Source: Sulfurimonas sp.
GTDB taxonomy: Bacteria; Campylobacterota; Campylobacteria; Campylobacterales; Sulfurimonadaceae
Direction of reading: 5' to 3'
Length of the DNA: 10,697 nucleotides
NCBI GenBank assembly: GCA_002733155.1
Contig: NVUO01000020.1
Location: 44,692-55,388 of the forward strand
Part shown: positions 5,256 to 10,697 of the stretch, in pieces
How positions within the stretch are numbered: position 1 is the stretch's first letter
How the letters are laid out: the number at the start of each line of letters is the position of its first letter
The notes under the pieces: model-generated
Database searches by the model: none
The model's input: only the letters and a program-made list of their open reading frames with translations
Told to the model about the DNA's origin: nothing
Translations under genes and position numbers: made by a program

Positions 5256-8200
5256 CTAAGTTAATATATCTATATGTGTATTACCCTCAAGAGCGTTAAT
5301 TATCTTTGAATCTACCCTTATAGCTGACTCAATAACAACATTTTGAAGTTTAGAAATAATAGTAAGTTTTAGTTCCCTATTCCCTGGATGTTGACGTACT
5401 AACATATAAAGCTCATCTAAAATCTCTGTGTTTTCATCAAGTCTTATAGCAAAATGAAGTGGAGATAATGGAGTCTCTCTTACTTCTTTTTTAACTTTTT
5501 TAGTCTCTTTAGAGGCTTGTTTTAGAGTCATAATCTTAGATACGCCGATTCTAGTAAACATTTCAGTATGAGTTATTTTTGCTTTAAATGCAACTGGTTC
5601 TTCTAAATCCATCTCTGATAATTGTTCAAGTTTATCAGAAAAAAGCATAATCTCAATGTTCCCATGAAAATCCATAAGGTTAACTATACCAAACTGGTTC
5701 CCTTTTTTAGAGATTTTCTTTTGTATATCTTCAACCTTACCTATAAAAATAGCGTATGAGCCATCTTTTATACCCTCTATCTCTGAACTCATTGTATATT
5801 CTAACTCATCCATAATCTCTCTGTATTCATCAAGTGGATGACCTGATACATAAAAGCCTAAGGTCTCTTTTTCAAACTCTAAAATCTCTTTAAGTTCATA
5901 CTCCTCTTTATTAGTAAGACTTAGGTTTACCATAGTGATATCTTCATCATCACCAAAAAGTGAGCCTACTGCATTTTTTCTTGCAGTTGAAGCATTTTTA
6001 GCAGTATCAACTATAGTTTCGAGTTGATCTAAAAGAGCTTTTCTTGAATATCCAAACCTATCAAAACCACCAGATTTTATACTAGATTCAATAAAACGTT
6101 TATTTACCTTTGATGGATCAATTCTATTTACAAAGTTCTCAATAGATGTAAACTCACCATCTTCTTCACGAGTTTCAATAATAGAAAGAACAGCTGATTC
6201 CCCCACCCCTTTAATGGCACCTAAACCGAACAATATTATCTCACGCTCATCTTTAGTAATTGCAGAAAATTCAAGGTAAGAATCGTTTACATCAGGTGGG
6301 CTTAACTCTATGCCCATTCTTTTTACCTCATCAATATAACGAACTACCTTATCTGTATTGTCCTTGTCAGATGTTAGAAGTGCAGCCATAAACTCATTTG
6401 GATAATAAGTTTTAAGCCATGCAGTTTGAAAAGTAACCATTGCATAAGCAGCTGAATGAGATTTATTAAAACCATATCCAGCAAATTTTTCAATCAAGTC
6501 AAAAAGCTTAGATGCTTCATCATAGGGATGACCTTGTTTTACAGCACCCTCAGAAAATTCAGCATTGTAAGTAGCCATATCTTTTTTCTTACCCATAGCT
6601 CTACGGATAATATCTGAATAACCAAGGCTAAATCCACCGACATTTTGAACAATCTGCATAACCTGTTCTTGGTATACGATGACCCCATAAGTATTTTTAA
6701 GTATTGGCTCCATTATGTCAAAGGTATACTTAATTTCTTCACGACCATGCTTACGTTCAACAAAACTATCTAACATTCCAGATTCCATAGGTCCCGGTCT
6801 ATAAAGTGCTAAAACGGCGATTAAATCCTCAAAGTTATCTGGTTTTAGACGTTTATTTAAGTCTTGCATACCTGAACTCTCTATCTGGAACATTCCAACA
6901 GTATCCCCAGTTCTAATTACCTCATAAACCTTAACATCATTTTCATCTATTTTATGCCAATCTACAGCTACATCGTAACGACGTTTTATAAGTTTGATTG
7001 CATTATCAATAACATCAAGAGTTTTAAGTCCAAGGAAGTCAAACTTAATTAAATCAACATCTTCAAGATAGTTAAGTGAGTACTGTGTTACAAAAGTATC
7101 TTCACCTGATGGTTTATAAATTGGAGTCTTATACCAAAGCTCTTCATTAGATATTACAACACCAGCTGCGTGAATCCCTGAATTACGTTTAAGCCCCTCT
7201 AGTTTTTTAGCAAATTCCCATACACGCTTAGCATTAGCATCACTCTCTATTAGTTCATTAATCTTTGGCTCTTTTTGAAAAGCTCCATCAATAAATTCAC
7301 CATTTTTTGTCTTACCATTTAAAGTAATACCTAACTCATCTGGTATTAACTTAGCCATTTTGTCAGCTTGAGAAAGTGGCATATCAAGTACACGAGCTAC
7401 ATCACGAATAACCCCCTTAGCTAAAAGAGAACCAAAGGTAATAATTTGTGCTACCTGATTACGACCGTACTTCTCTACTACATAGTCTATAACCTCACCA
7501 CGACGAGCTTGCATAAAGTCCATGTCAATATCGGGCATTGATACACGTTCAGGATTTAAAAATCTCTCAAAAAGTAAATCATACTTCATAGGGTCAATAT
7601 CTGTAATATCAAGTGAATATGCAACCAATGAGCCAGCTGCTGAACCTCGTCCAGGCCCAACGGCAATGTCCTTCTCTTTGGCAACTTTAACAAAATCCCA
7701 AACAATAAGCATATATCCAGGGAACTTCATAGAGTTAATAATATCAATCTCAAAGTCTAAACGTTCTCTATACTCTTGATGTTTAGATTCATCTACATGT
7801 TTAAGTCTATTTTCTAAACCAAGTTTACATCTATATGTAAAGTACTGGGCATCAGATTCATCTTTATCGTCACTTGTAAGTGCAAAACCGTCTGTCTTTG
7901 CATACTCTTTTGTAAACTTAAAATTAGGTGGGGTTGGAGTCTTTACTATTGGTACAAAATTCTCTATTTTATTTACTATCTCTTGAGTATGAGTTATAGC
8001 CTCTGGTATATCTGCAAACAGTAAAGCCATTTGTGCGGGAGACTTTAGGTAAAACTCATGTACAGAGTGACGCATACGGTTTGGATCATCATAAAGTTTA
8101 TTCATACCTATACACATAAAAGCTTCATGATACTGAGCATCACCTGGATATGTATAGTGGGTATCATTAGTAGCTACTACTTTTATACCAGTCTCATGTG

Positions 8201-8807
8201 ATATTTTTAATATTTGTTCATCTATAAATAATTGGTCGCCAATACCATGACGCATAAGCTCTAAATAAAAATCATCACCAAATATCTCTTGATACTCACG
8301 TGCAACTTTAATAGCACCATCATATCCTAAGGCTCCATTTCTTACATTTTTTTCATTTGAAAGATTTAGATGCCAGTTAACCTCACCCTGTAAGCATGCA
8401 GATGTACAAATAAGCCCTTCAGAATGTGCACGTAACTCATTTTTATTTATACGAGGGAAATAATACATACCTTCAATATAAGCCTTTGAAGATAGATACA
8501 TAAGGTTTTCATAACCTTTTTTGTTTTTAGCAAAGAGACATATGTGAAATCTTTGTTTAGTAGATTTATCACCCATAGTCTCACCGTTATGGATATACCC
8601 CTCCATACCAATGATAGGTTTAATATCAGCTGCTCTCATCTGATGGTAAAAATCAATAGCACCAAACATATTTCCATGGTCAGTCATAGCTACAGACTTC
8701 ATACCAAGCTCTTGTAGCTGAGTAACAAGGTTAGTTAATTTGTTCGCACCATCTAGCAGTGAGTATTCAGTATGTAAGTGTAAGTGAGTAAAAGGTTGTA
8801 CGCTCAT
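5256..8807 (-). CDS. dnaE: DNA polymerase III alpha subunit
   Basis: A 1183-residue replicative polymerase subunit that makes DNA from dNTPs at the fork, working with the beta clamp and tau complex. The PHP domain (about 5-290) begins HLHLHTEYSLLDG. The polymerase core includes GPGRGSAAGSL (384-394), catalytic D428 and D430 in PDIDMDF, and D590 in LIKFDFLGL. FNKSHSAAYA (780-789) and LALYRPGPMESG are also typical. A helix-hairpin-helix stretch lies near 860-875 (FGLGAIKGVGE). A probable clamp-binding motif VGSLFGD lies at 947-953, and an OB fold spans about 1018-1060. The length is normal. The ATG at 8807 is preceded by a GGA seven bases away. All nine PHP metal positions look present (H10, H12, D19, H44, E69, H88, C138, D215, H217). 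It leads a minus-strand cluster with the ICMT-like gene. Confidence 0.98.
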   Translation of the reverse strand: MSVQPFTHLHLHTEYSLLDGANKLTNLVTQLQELGMKSVAMTDHGNMFGAIDFYHQMRAADIKPIIGMEGYIHNGETMGDKSTKQRFHICLFAKNKKGYENLMYLSSKAYIEGMYYFPRINKNELRAHSEGLICTSACLQGEVNWHLNLSNEKNVRNGALGYDGAIKVAREYQEIFGDDFYLELMRHGIGDQLFIDEQILKISHETGIKVVATNDTHYTYPGDAQYHEAFMCIGMNKLYDDPNRMRHSVHEFYLKSPAQMALLFADIPEAITHTQEIVNKIENFVPIVKTPTPPNFKFTKEYAKTDGFALTSDDKDESDAQYFTYRCKLGLENRLKHVDESKHQEYRERLDFEIDIINSMKFPGYMLIVWDFVKVAKEKDIAVGPGRGSAAGSLVAYSLDITDIDPMKYDLLFERFLNPERVSMPDIDMDFMQARRGEVIDYVVEKYGRNQVAQIITFGSLLAKGVIRDVARVLDMPLSQADKMAKLIPDELGITLNGKTKNGEFIDGAFQKEPKINELIESDANAKRVWEFAKKLEGLKRNSGIHAAGVVISNEELWYKTPIYKPSGEDTFVTQYSLNYLEDVDLIKFDFLGLKTLDVIDNAIKLIKRRYDVAVDWHKIDENDVKVYEVIRTGDTVGMFQIESSGMQDLNKRLKPDNFEDLIAVLALYRPGPMESGMLDSFVERKHGREEIKYTFDIMEPILKNTYGVIVYQEQVMQIVQNVGGFSLGYSDIIRRAMGKKKDMATYNAEFSEGAVKQGHPYDEASKLFDLIEKFAGYGFNKSHSAAYAMVTFQTAWLKTYYPNEFMAALLTSDKDNTDKVVRYIDEVKRMGIELSPPDVNDSYLEFSAITKDEREIILFGLGAIKGVGESAVLSIIETREEDGEFTSIENFVNRIDPSKVNKRFIESSIKSGGFDRFGYSRKALLDQLETIVDTAKNASTARKNAVGSLFGDDEDITMVNLSLTNKEEYELKEILEFEKETLGFYVSGHPLDEYREIMDELEYTMSSEIEGIKDGSYAIFIGKVEDIQKKISKKGNQFGIVNLMDFHGNIEIMLFSDKLEQLSEMDLEEPVAFKAKITHTEMFTRIGVSKIMTLKQASKETKKVKKEVRETPLSPLHFAIRLDENTEILDELYMLVRQHPGNRELKLTIISKLQNVVIESAIRVDSKIINALEGNTHIDILT

Positions 8808-8845: not shown

Positions 8846-8855
8846 TTTTTATATG

Positions 8856-8861
8856 ATTATA
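8856..8861 (-). promoter_or_regulatory. Candidate -10 element for dnaE
   Basis: TATAAT on the minus strand, about 50 bases upstream of the dnaE ATG. The predicted transcript would start near 8849 and carry the REP-like hairpin in its leader. The -35 region (TTAGAT with 17-bp spacing) is poor. Confidence 0.42.
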
Positions 8862-8928
8862 GTTAATTTTACTTAAAATCTAACTTCCTCTTTTAAGTAT
8901 CATTATGAGTGTTATGTAAGTATATGAC

Positions 8929-8956
8929 AAATAACAATCATTTGAGGCTGTTATTT
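8929..8956. repeat. Inverted repeat with 8-bp arms
   Basis: AAATAACA (8929-8936) is the exact reverse complement of TGTTATTT (8949-8956), with 12 bases between. It contains the 12-mer TAACAATCATTT that recurs at 9056. It is a possible binding site for a regulator; the function is unknown. Confidence 0.4.
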
Positions 8957-9055
8957 ATTTACAGAGTATTTAACAGTCACATTTTATTTAAGAATACTAT
9001 GCCAAACTCATAGAAAAACTGAAAAATACTATAATTTTCAATAATTTTTTACTTT

Positions 9056-9080
9056 TAACAATCATTTTAAATGATAGTTA
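9056..9080. repeat. 25-bp dyad upstream of the plus-strand promoter
   Basis: The arms TAAC-A-ATCATT and AATGAT-A-GTTA surround a TTA centre at 9067-9069, giving ten paired positions per arm with one A/A mismatch. The centre lies about 50 bases before the predicted start of transcription, a usual place for an activator or repressor site. The left arm repeats the 12-mer found at 8932. Confidence 0.42.
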
Positions 9081-9105
9081 ATTTTATTATTTAAGCTAAG
9101 TTATA

Positions 9106-9111
9106 TATAAT
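9106..9111 (+). promoter_or_regulatory. Candidate -10 element for the DUF4145-like gene
   Basis: TATAAT within TTATATATAATGATG, with transcription expected near 9118 and a leader of about 50 bases containing the G+C-rich hairpin. If the downstream gene is an integron cassette beginning at 9128, this promoter lies outside the cassette and would drive it, as a Pc promoter does. Confidence 0.42.
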
Positions 9112-9126
9112 GATGTTGAATAAATA

Positions 9127-9155
9127 GTTATCCGCTCACTGCGTGACCGGATAAC
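9127..9155 (+). other. G+C-rich hairpin in the leader of the DUF4145-like gene
   Basis: GTTATCCG (9127-9134) pairs with CGGATAAC (9148-9155). Inside, TCAC pairs with GTGA around a TGC loop, with one C/C mismatch at 9135/9147. The ribosome binding site GGGGA follows directly at 9156-9160. There is no T-run, so it is not a classical terminator. The left edge GTT could be the cassette boundary (see attC). It might control translation or be a recombination structure. Confidence 0.55.
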
Positions 9156-9170
9156 GGGGAAATAAATTAA

Positions 9171-9995
9171 ATGAAAAAATTTCTATTACAAAACTTGTGG
9201 TGGGTAACTTTTTTATCTGCGTTTGCTTTATTAGTAATCCATAGTTTTAATCTAGCAAATATTAGTGTAAATTCGACATCTATAGTACTATTGTTAATTA
9301 TGCTCATCAGCCCATTTATTATTGCAATAAAAAAAATTAAATATGGAGATTTTGAAGCAGAAATAGATTCTGAAGAAATAAAAACATTAAAACTAGAACT
9401 AGAAAAAGCTATTACTTCCAAACCAGATGAAAATATTGAGCAAGCTGAAATATTCAAAACAACAGATGCAATACGTAAGTTAGCAGAATCCGATCCAGTT
9501 ATCGCTTTAGCAAAAGTGAGAATTGAGTTAGAGAAAACATTAACTCGCCTTGAAAGAATCACTTTAGTCGATACACAACCGTCTTCGTTAGGAACGCTTG
9601 TGCGTAAACTTATAAACCATGAAATCATTTCTTCGCAAGTTGGAAAATCTTTAAGTAATGTAATTAGCCTATGTAATCGTGCAATCCATGGAGAATATAT
9701 TGCAAAAGAAGATGCTTTAACTGTTGTGGAACTTGGAAATGAATTATTAGAAGATTTGGACTGGCGTATAGCAGAACAAACTAATACACATTCCATTGTC
9801 AGTGAAGAAATTATTTCTCCAAATAAATCAAATGAATATTACAAGAAACGATATCAGATAACTACGATTACTCCTTATGTTGAAAACCCTAAGAAAATAG
9901 TACGAGAACTTACTCAAGAACAATTAGATGATTTTTTAGATGGTTACAATGAATATGCAGAGTTTATTGTTAAATTAATTGAACTACCAGAATAA
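9171..9995 (+). CDS. Membrane-anchored protein with a DUF4145-like C-terminal domain
   Basis: A 274-residue protein of unknown function. Two N-terminal membrane segments (about 9-26 and 35-54) are followed by KIKYGDFEAEIDSEEI and a charged helical or coiled-coil stretch (about 60-105). A soluble helical domain (about 106-200) then shows a pattern I associate with DUF4145: DPVIALAKVRIELEKTL, a LINHEIIS segment, CNRAIHGEYIAKEDAL (168-183) and LGNELLEDL. The C-terminus (201-274) is unrecognised. Related domains occur in restriction- or defence-linked proteins and in cassette-borne membrane proteins, but no function is proven. The start ATG has GGGGA ten bases upstream. The stop abuts a putative attC site, so the gene is probably an integron cassette. 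It is transcribed divergently from dnaE. Confidence 0.85.
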   Translation: MKKFLLQNLWWVTFLSAFALLVIHSFNLANISVNSTSIVLLLIMLISPFIIAIKKIKYGDFEAEIDSEEIKTLKLELEKAITSKPDENIEQAEIFKTTDAIRKLAESDPVIALAKVRIELEKTLTRLERITLVDTQPSSLGTLVRKLINHEIISSQVGKSLSNVISLCNRAIHGEYIAKEDALTVVELGNELLEDLDWRIAEQTNTHSIVSEEIISPNKSNEYYKKRYQITTITPYVENPKKIVRELTQEQLDDFLDGYNEYAEFIVKLIELPE

Positions 9996-10066
9996 TGCTA
10001 ACAAATCAGAGGAGCCAATATTTGCCCCTAGACGGGTCAAATATTGCCCTCCTTAAACGTTGTACT
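9996..10066 (+). repeat. Putative integron attC recombination site
   Basis: It begins at the base after the stop of the DUF4145-like gene. The left R-type box is TGCTAAC (9996-10002), and the right box is AACGTTGTAC with the likely crossover G10059^T10060. Between them AGGAG (10010-10014) pairs with CTCCT (10049-10053). CAATATTTG (10016-10024) pairs with CAAATATTG (10038-10046). CCC pairs with GGG around a short loop. The asymmetric break between the two stems (C against CC) leaves an unpaired base, as in the extrahelical bases of attC. There is no T-run, so a rho-independent terminator is unlikely. The boxes do not fit the RYYYAAC/GTTRRRY consensus perfectly. The right-hand bases of the crossover belong to the next cassette in an array, which explains poor pairing with the left box. 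Confidence 0.7.
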
Positions 10067-10117
10067 CCAGATTAACATTTTGAATATAGCTATTTAAAAA
10101 CACACACAAGGATAATT

Positions 10118-10697
10118 ATGAAGTTATTTAAATTAAGTGCCACAGTCTTGGCTCTAGTCGTTTCGTTAAATGCAACCGATATTAAACCTTTCGGTAATTT
10201 TAATTTTGGGGATAGTTTTACTCCAGTTTATAAAAACTTATGTAAAACAAAAAATATTACCAATATTAAAATTGGATTTGCTAAACCAGTTAGTAAAAAT
10301 GAATTTTGTAAAAGCAAAAAACATGCTGTTGATTTAGTTGCAAAATCTAGTAAGCAAAAATATAGACCAAGTAAGTTAAATAAAGTCACAATAAAAAGTT
10401 TTGAAAATATTGCTAGATATAATTTATATATTAGAGCCGATGGAATAAATATTAAGGGTGTAGATTTTGAACTTCAACTTCATATGGGTACTCATAGAGA
10501 AGAAGAAACAGTTGGTAGCTATTTATTAACTAAAAATGATACAATCAAAATTGGTAAATTCTATGTTCCATTAGAGCTTGATGAAGTACAATTGAAACCA
10601 AAAAAATATTCTCAGTTTACATTACATCAAGAAGCAATATTTAATATTTTATGGAAAAAATATAATCATTTAGTAAAAAAAGATAATAAAAAACGTC
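10118..10697 (+). CDS. Secreted protein of unknown function, 3' end outside window
   Basis: The frame is open from ATG 10118 to the window edge (193 complete codons, no stop). The start has a good AAGGA ribosome binding site five bases upstream. The first about 19 residues, MKLFKLSATVLALVVSLNA, form a signal peptide for periplasmic export. The mature part is basic, with many lysines, and has two cysteines (C42 and C64) that could form a disulfide. It includes FGNFNFGDSFTPVYKNLC and later IRADGINIKGVDFELQLHMG. I do not recognise the family. It starts 58 bases after the putative attC crossover and runs in the same direction as the previous gene, as expected for the next cassette of an array. 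It could equally be an ordinary chromosomal gene flanking a single inserted cassette. Confidence 0.8.
   Translation, partial: MKLFKLSATVLALVVSLNATDIKPFGNFNFGDSFTPVYKNLCKTKNITNIKIGFAKPVSKNEFCKSKKHAVDLVAKSSKQKYRPSKLNKVTIKSFENIARYNLYIRADGINIKGVDFELQLHMGTHREEETVGSYLLTKNDTIKIGKFYVPLELDEVQLKPKKYSQFTLHQEAIFNILWKKYNHLVKKDNKKR

Follow-up and report, generated by a model that had tools for sequence, protein, structure and literature searches.

The locus beside dnaE

The window, meaning the whole stretch of DNA that was analysed, comprises 10,697 nucleotides of contig C13 (G000:C13:44692-55388) from a Sulfurimonas draft genome of 2.29 Mb in 44 contigs, which is 84% complete. It carries dnaE on the minus strand and, upstream of this gene, an attI site followed by gene cassettes on the plus strand (Table 1). 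The attI begins about 30 bp beyond the promoter-like GATTATAGT of dnaE, which is kept, and the array heads towards the end of contig C13. An Rfam search over the window gave no family at gathering scores.

Table 1. Features of the dnaE locus in window numbering
Feature	Position	Strand	Remarks
dnaE (DNA polymerase III alpha), left flank of the platform	5256..8807	-	Pfam DNA_pol3_alpha, finger, PHP
Promoter-like GATTATAGT of dnaE	8855-8863		Also upstream of dnaE in many relatives (by eye)
Solo attI platform, long form	8893..9127	+	Left edge TTAAG; right edge crossover G9127^T9128
Proximal attI matched by the attI profile	9036..9130	+	46.2 bits, E 5.3e-13
Palindromic box TTAACaATCATTT..AAATGATaGTTAA inside attI	9055..9081	+	From sequence; candidate second integrase-binding site
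-10-like box TATAAT, candidate cassette promoter	9106..9111	+	Begins 21 nt before the crossover G
Start (33 bases) of a non-coding cassette that recurs; hairpin GTTATCCG..CGGATAAC	9127..9159	+	33/33 identical to the first cassette of C15 and to the C7 and C16 copies
Cassette 1, 932 bp	9128..10059	+	attI crossover to attC crossover
Gene of cassette 1, 274 aa	9171..9995	+	N-terminal hydrophobic stretch and DUF4145 domain
attC of cassette 1, crossover G10059^T10060	9996..10065	+	55 bits, E 8.9e-11 (held-out covariance model, over the window)
Cassette 2, first part	10060..10697	+	Ends beyond the window, at about 11399
First gene of cassette 2, 252 aa	10118..10697	+	Signal-like N-terminus; one ambiguous base inside
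attC of cassette 2	11336-11405 (C13:56027-56096)	+	64.1 bits; 1340 bp past the first attC

The gene of cassette 1 (the 9171 gene) encodes a product whose DUF4145 match (PF13643) lies just at the Pfam threshold, with 23.2 bits against a cut-off of 23.1. The sequence suggests a membrane-anchored DUF4145 protein, and nothing beyond that is proposed. A defence gene label was rejected, as PADLOC gave only a weak PDC-M16A match (E 2.6e-4) to part of a 930-position model. The product has 390 homologues at E ≤ 1e-3, and the best 120 of them include, by record name, proteins of Escherichia fergusonii (58% identity), Pseudomonas (58%), Shewanella (56%) and Aeromonas veronii (54%). Homologues in these named bacteria suggest transfer between phyla, as cassettes would undergo. 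No match to the product was found among phage proteins and one among plasmids (Vibrio owensii, 44% identity), and the attI core motif had no match among viral contigs; no carrier element was therefore found. The recurrent non-coding start passes straight into the 9171 gene, so cassette 1 resembles a fusion.

The second attC lies outside the window, and the 10118 gene therefore belongs to cassette 2. This gene is followed, beyond the window, by a second ORF of 148 aa in the same cassette, and a Pfam search of both ORFs gave no match at E ≤ 0.01. Past the second attC, at L088:4206-8579 (11514-15887 in window numbering), the first gene is a DNA methylase by Pfam, and the ORFs after it resemble its restriction partner, with no match at the Pfam cut-off. 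These genes may form a third cassette or the right flank of the island. No full attC was found after them, and the contig ends 136 bp later.

attC sites of the array

The initial annotation had described an imperfect dyad with attC layout directly 3' of the stop codon of the 9171 gene. The dyad was indeed found there (stop at 9993-9995), with its TAAC and GTT boxes and an asymmetric unpaired base. An attC covariance model covering the R and L boxes and the inner stem was built from 46 attC of genus loci, with that of the window left out. This held-out model recognized the dyad as an attC and reproduced both the proposed crossover and the proposed 932-bp cassette. The pairs of the model covary, since 80.6% of the cells were paired and 134 cells had changed on both sides, while none of 500 shuffles was as high on either measure. 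The bottom strand of attC is the strand that integrases use. At 9996-10066 this strand folds at -15.8 kcal/mol, against -5.6 ± 2.0 for shuffled sequences, none of which (0/200) was as good.

Both attC of the array lie on the plus strand, the strand pointing away from attI, as in an integron. A lack of attC in the window and elsewhere in the genome had been named beforehand as evidence against a cassette; instead, the attC of the window was matched, and its own genome gave 15 matches at E ≤ 0.01, that of the window included. The model could favour one type of attC, since attI or attC matches had led to many of the loci that supplied its training set; the genus-wide searches with it covered whole genomes.

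The attI platform upstream of dnaE

The left edge of cassette 1 (G9127^T9128) had been called uncertain, and it was settled by homology to other attI. An attI profile built without the window site and without its intI-linked twin on contig C15 matched the proximal part of the platform. In comparison with the intI-adjacent attI of C15, the distal part (8893-9051) is identical at 128 of 159 aligned positions and the proximal part (9052-9126) at 73 of 75 (Fisher p 2e-4 between the two parts), and the identity continues past the crossover for 33 of 33 positions into the cassette. Positions 9100-9159 are 100% identical to the DNA that separates intI from its first cassette on C15. The steep rise in identity towards the crossover would fit exchange or conversion between platforms, among other possible histories. 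Misassembly was considered as the source of the attI beside dnaE and is hardly tenable, given that the distal part differs from C15 at 31 of 159 aligned positions; the DNA to the right of the repeated proximal attI, however, may have been swapped by such an error.

Two further features lie within attI. A box of the AAC..ACAT..TGT..GTT type recurs across the 51-row attI alignment (by eye), and the palindromic box of the window is a candidate second integrase-binding site, with binding predicted from its sequence. The TATAATG of the sites chosen by the search pattern is invariant by construction, because the pattern itself holds it, and the -10 box was therefore counted only in the 56 attI sites outside the pattern; in 51 of these, TATAAT with at most one mismatch stands at offset 21 or 22.

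The dnaE locus was also compared with that of relatives. A dnaE match was obtained in 52 relatives, and 30 loci, including that of the window, were fetched. The attI core string was absent upstream of dnaE in all 29 relatives read, over 499-1500 bp each. The initial annotation had stated that conservation of the 9171 gene and its dyad in all relatives would speak against a cassette; no such conservation exists, as 0/29 have the attI core. The putative attI insertion at dnaE is peculiar to this genome among those read. A weak attI match (E 5e-6) was seen at G065:C55:4376-4451, on the same contig as dnaE, about 3 kb past the dnaE-matched stretch and on the opposite side of dnaE from that in the window.

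Integrase and other attI sites in the same genome

No integrase had been seen in the window, and tblastn extended this result to C13:40000-60714, where no intI was found, whereas a complete integron has intI beside its attI. An integrase is encoded elsewhere in the genome. One integron integrase (TIGR02249) exceeded the family cut-off, on contig C15, with 405.8 bits against 265. Eleven further weak matches fell below the cut-off, and the family also gives weak matches in all 14 control genomes. The genome contains at least three attI, on contigs C13, C15 and C25, with a complete intI only at C15. The attI of C25 has no intI by tblastn, yet it adjoins a stretch that resembles the start of intI (by eye). 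No attC was found after the C25 attI in the 8 kb searched.

attI sites in the genus

The exact attI core motif occurs in 20/60 genomes of the genus, and a reversed control in none. A genus attI profile was built from 51 sites, leaving out the window and C15, and it gave 128 matches in 48/60 genomes at E ≤ 1e-4. An integrase over the cut-off was found in 22/60. The survey included 104 attI sites from 41 genomes, of which some within-genome pairs (e.g., on two G016 contigs) may be one site split by assembly; they lie in 120 fetched regions around most attI matches, integrases and arrays. Ten weaker matches (L312, L317, L320, L321, L322, L324, L325, L327, L333 and L346), which nhmmer did not recover at E ≤ 1e-3, stand outside the 104.

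At the 100 sites with at least 1.3 kb of upstream sequence, intI was near-full at 13, partial at 7 and absent at 80. A gene counted as near-full when tblastn covered 295 or more of the 322 residues. This class contains broken genes (L094, read in two frames, and L100, split into two pieces), and intact intI are therefore fewer than counted. Predicted attI without intI outnumber those with intI in this genus. A contig scan for the core motif gave at least 116 loci, and most of the records belong by title to Sulfurimonas or other Campylobacterota; a few among the matches listed lie outside this phylum by title (Staphylococcus, Paludibacteraceae and others). Around 80 of the loci, intI was near-full at 13, in two pieces at one and partial at five.

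The attI motif is tied to integrons, as 13 of the 16 fetched regions with a near-full intI have an attI, with 162-205 bp between the intI and profile matches. The other three regions (L098, L326 and L327) have none at the survey threshold, which means that the profile does not fit every integron of the genus. Counted over 24 integrase places above the cut-off, 15 have an attI match close upstream and five lack one at threshold, one of which (in G011) gained an attI in a smaller profile search; the remaining four are truncated by a contig end or stand no more than about 190 bp from one.

The attC sites follow attI in a directed manner. With at least 3.9 kb of downstream sequence available (65 sites), 40 attI have an attC within 4 kb on the same strand and none on the opposite strand, and no attC occurs in the 2.4 kb upstream of attI (0/94). 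Solo attI have an attC within 4 kb downstream at 31 of 53 sites, against 7 of 8 sites with a near-full intI. Because 25 of the 65 sites lack an attC in this range and solo sites have one less often, some platforms are empty, truncated or dead.

Single-contig genomes and the wider phylum

Five single-contig genomes of the genus contain 18 attI and 52 attC (E ≤ 0.01). All but two of the attC (50/52) have an attI on the same strand at most 17 kb upstream, a position for which the fraction expected by chance is 0.013; G047:1213203 and G048:1283124, the weakest-supported of the 18 attI and both among the ten matches outside the 104, each account for one attC, and without both the count is 48/52. 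Counted as clusters, 14 of 16 groups of attC are preceded by an attI. One of the two exceptions, at G047:C1:1135465-1135533, is a strong attC (80 bits) with no attI within 17 kb. Among the 18 attI, four have a near-full intI and two a damaged intI. One of the four attI of G011, that beside its intI, was found only by the smaller profile search. In G047, which carries four attI, no integrase was matched at E ≤ 1e-25. The near-complete genome G009, in two contigs, gave a single attC and, at threshold, no attI.

In the phylum, attI at E ≤ 1e-7 was found in 20 of 200 genomes, which include the genome of the window and four others of its genus, and in 12 of 47 genera; the remaining 180 genomes gave none. 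Three single-contig genomes (G182, G189 and G211) have three or four attI each and no integrase over the cut-off. The platforms of genomes with attI but no such integrase (G002, G047, G182, G189, G211 and others) cannot now be active unless one enters the cell. Two named isolates were also examined. The complete genome of Sulfurospirillum diekertiae JPD-1 has two core-motif loci and one weak attC match, and no integrase was matched in it at E ≤ 1e-15. In S. arcachonense DSM 9755, an integrase, two core-motif loci and 14 attC matches were found.

Cassette exchange at orthologous platforms

A left flank common between genomes was found for 19 pairs of attI sites, and homology continued past the crossover in none of the 19, although many pairs have little downstream sequence or distant flanks (several about 66-75% alike), which weakens them. 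Both flanks are conserved in seven pairs from five loci. In the clearest pair, L092 (G047:1038751) and L093 (G064:439011), the left flank aligns over 7251 bp at 92.8% identity and ends 1 bp past the modelled end of attI. It is followed by islands of about 543 and 1039 bp that cannot be aligned with each other, and then by 5974 bp at 96.4% identity. No intI is present at this platform in either species; G064 has a broken intI elsewhere in its genome and G047 has none. Since both platforms lack intI after the same upstream DNA, the integrase appears to have gone before the lineages split, and since the cassettes differ, the exchange would have come after this loss. Islands of differing length between two conserved flanks were also seen in six further pairs, which come from four loci.

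Loss of intI can be followed at another orthologous locus, where G056 has intI and G021 only an N-terminal remnant of about 30 bp (by eye), which indicates that platforms do lose intI. No intI is visible in G012 at the same locus (by eye). For the attI at dnaE, no relative was found with another cassette at the same site, so that activity of this copy is only presumed.

Proposed origin and function of the platforms

Read from its DNA, the dnaE stretch is an integrase-less integron platform with a complete attI and at least two captured cassettes. It is part of a larger predicted pattern, in which an integron is spread over several attI, most of them without an integrase. The explanation that we consider probable is a dispersed integron, in which attI pads orphaned by the loss of intI are served in trans by the remaining IntI. 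Complete integrons would have settled at several chromosomal places or would have been duplicated, and intI would have been lost at most of these places by deletion or decay while attI stayed. The IntI of C15 would then insert attC-bearing cassettes in trans at the G^TT of any attI, including that at dnaE, and the TATAAT box in attI would drive the first cassette. For class 1 integrons, plasmid assays have established that IntI can act on att sites in trans. The parts that can be read directly are attI, attC and their crossovers, the absence of intI in cis and its presence in trans, the dispersal of the sites and the homology breaks at other platforms. From these we infer that cassettes recombine in trans, that they are expressed, and how events followed one another at dnaE.

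The array could also be a fossil. In this case a complete integron would have captured the cassettes with intI in cis, intI would then have been deleted, and the dead remains would have stayed unchanged since. The piece resembling the start of intI at C25 (by eye), the graded decay of intI at other sites and the several genomes that keep attI without any integrase over the cut-off are consistent with this explanation, as is the lower share of solo sites with attC. It would also agree with Xanthomonas, where arrays are usually identical among strains that share an intI defect, according to the available part of PMC12444791. L092 and L093 argue against a fossil, because both lack intI and have the same left flank up to the crossover, yet carry different cassettes. 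The gradient between the proximal (73/75) and distal (128/159) attI is unlike plain decay, and no clear remnant of intI was seen between dnaE and attI (by eye). A fossil is therefore judged unlikely. Two other explanations deny that attI acts as the landing site. If the attI-like repeat were a mere promoter or small dispersed repeat and no recombination site, its well-placed -10 box, its persistence in genomes without an integrase and the three of 16 near-full intI that lack it at threshold would be accounted for. The spacing of 162-205 bp at 13 of 16 near-full intI, the occurrence of attC solely downstream on the strand of attI and the break of homology at the G^TT of attI make this very improbable. 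Insertion of the cassettes at a random attG-type site upstream of dnaE, without attI, would give a CALIN by off-target integration, a process discussed in the accessible parts of PMC12901181 and PMC12444791; given that a 235-bp attI precedes the first cassette, it is barely credible here.

Within the dispersed integron, attI may have come to dnaE as part of a landed integron that lost its intI or by spreading alone. A more far-reaching version holds that attI of Campylobacterota are mobile, multiplying landing pads of about 80 or 255 bp, which have their own promoter, spread without intI and are used by one or an occasional IntI in trans. We regard this version as rather doubtful. The three attI copies of G062 are 96-100% alike over their last 95 bp, and their unrelated flanks begin at the same TTTAA edge. 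The likeness of attI is also higher within genomes (0.682) than between them (0.621), with 0/2000 label shuffles as high. Both results speak for spread of attI alone, and the likeness within genomes would also be expected from conversion or from selection by a common integrase. Only 25 of 93 sites, however, have their nearest attI within their own genome.

Integrons are usually described as having one integrase and one attI. Here, attI platforms far outnumber integrases (near-full intI at 13/100 sites), and the sequences point to cassette exchange at platforms away from an integrase. Gene capture may thus be spread over many chromosomal places instead of one. If this is true, the CALINs of the phylum would partly be orphan platforms that are still able to capture genes, and loss of intI need not end capture where another IntI is present in the cell or comes into it. 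The position of the first cassette, which is held to be the best expressed, would then exist several times per genome.

Relation to known systems

The locus has the same attI, attC, cassettes and promoter-like box at attI as a sedentary chromosomal integron, with an integrase in the genome. In such an integron, intI adjoins attI and the array, whereas at dnaE the attI and array lie on a different contig from intI. The genus profile is, to our knowledge, the only attI profile for a clade outside class 1, and it makes solo attI searchable elsewhere. The array had been assigned to the CALIN elements, and this label holds only in part. The two attC lie 1340 bp apart with no intI alongside, which agrees with the threshold of two attC used in PMC9024848, whereas the dnaE array differs from a CALIN in having its own complete attI. 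In our reading, the lack of attI is implied for CALINs by the usual picture and stands outside their formal definition. According to the part of PMC9024848 consulted, attI are poorly described outside class 1, and IntegronFinder 2 does not detect them there; CALINs of this clade may therefore in part be solo attI platforms. For Sulfurimonas autotrophica, a table in PMC10295459, a source available in part, gives In0 and CALIN; Sulfurovum NBC37-1 is entered there with two CALIN.

The integrons of Xanthomonas with an inactivated intI at ilvD resemble the present case in that loss of intI leaves an array and CALINs occur at several loci, seven in number in the available text of PMC12444791. The same text, citing earlier work, reports identical arrays in strains that have an intI defect in common, whereas in the present case the cassettes differ between orthologous solo attI. 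In class 1 and 2 integrons, Delta-attI-type cassettes, as described in a portion of PMC12901181, also place attI away from its usual position, within cassette arrays. They mostly consist of short attI ends (14-18 nt in class 1) that replace an attC within an integron, whereas here a whole attI starts an independent array. Among the titles and abstract openings covered, with subscription journals mostly outside the scope, no description of integrase-free attI platforms was found.

A recurrent non-coding cassette and contig ends

A non-coding cassette of about 145 bp, with a hairpin start and a GC-rich attC-like end, recurs within the arrays and in some cases stands first after attI. Copies were seen at L082:6096, at L083:2012 and 5705, and at L084 (reverse strand numbering) 2990 and 6537, and a partial copy lies at window 9127-9159. 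It recurs in full at C15, C7 and C16. A palindrome of this cassette type starts 15 of the 204 attI sites checked, some of which are counted in two collections. A similar AT-rich stretch (GAGACTGT.AAATAATCAAACCCCTCAACTC...) was seen beside arrays at three contig ends (the tails of L082 and L083 and the head of L085), and it may be an insertion sequence at which the assembly broke off. At the tail of L085, where contig C10 ends, the DNA looks very G+C-rich compared with the rest of the genome (by eye), which points to possible contamination or a chimera.
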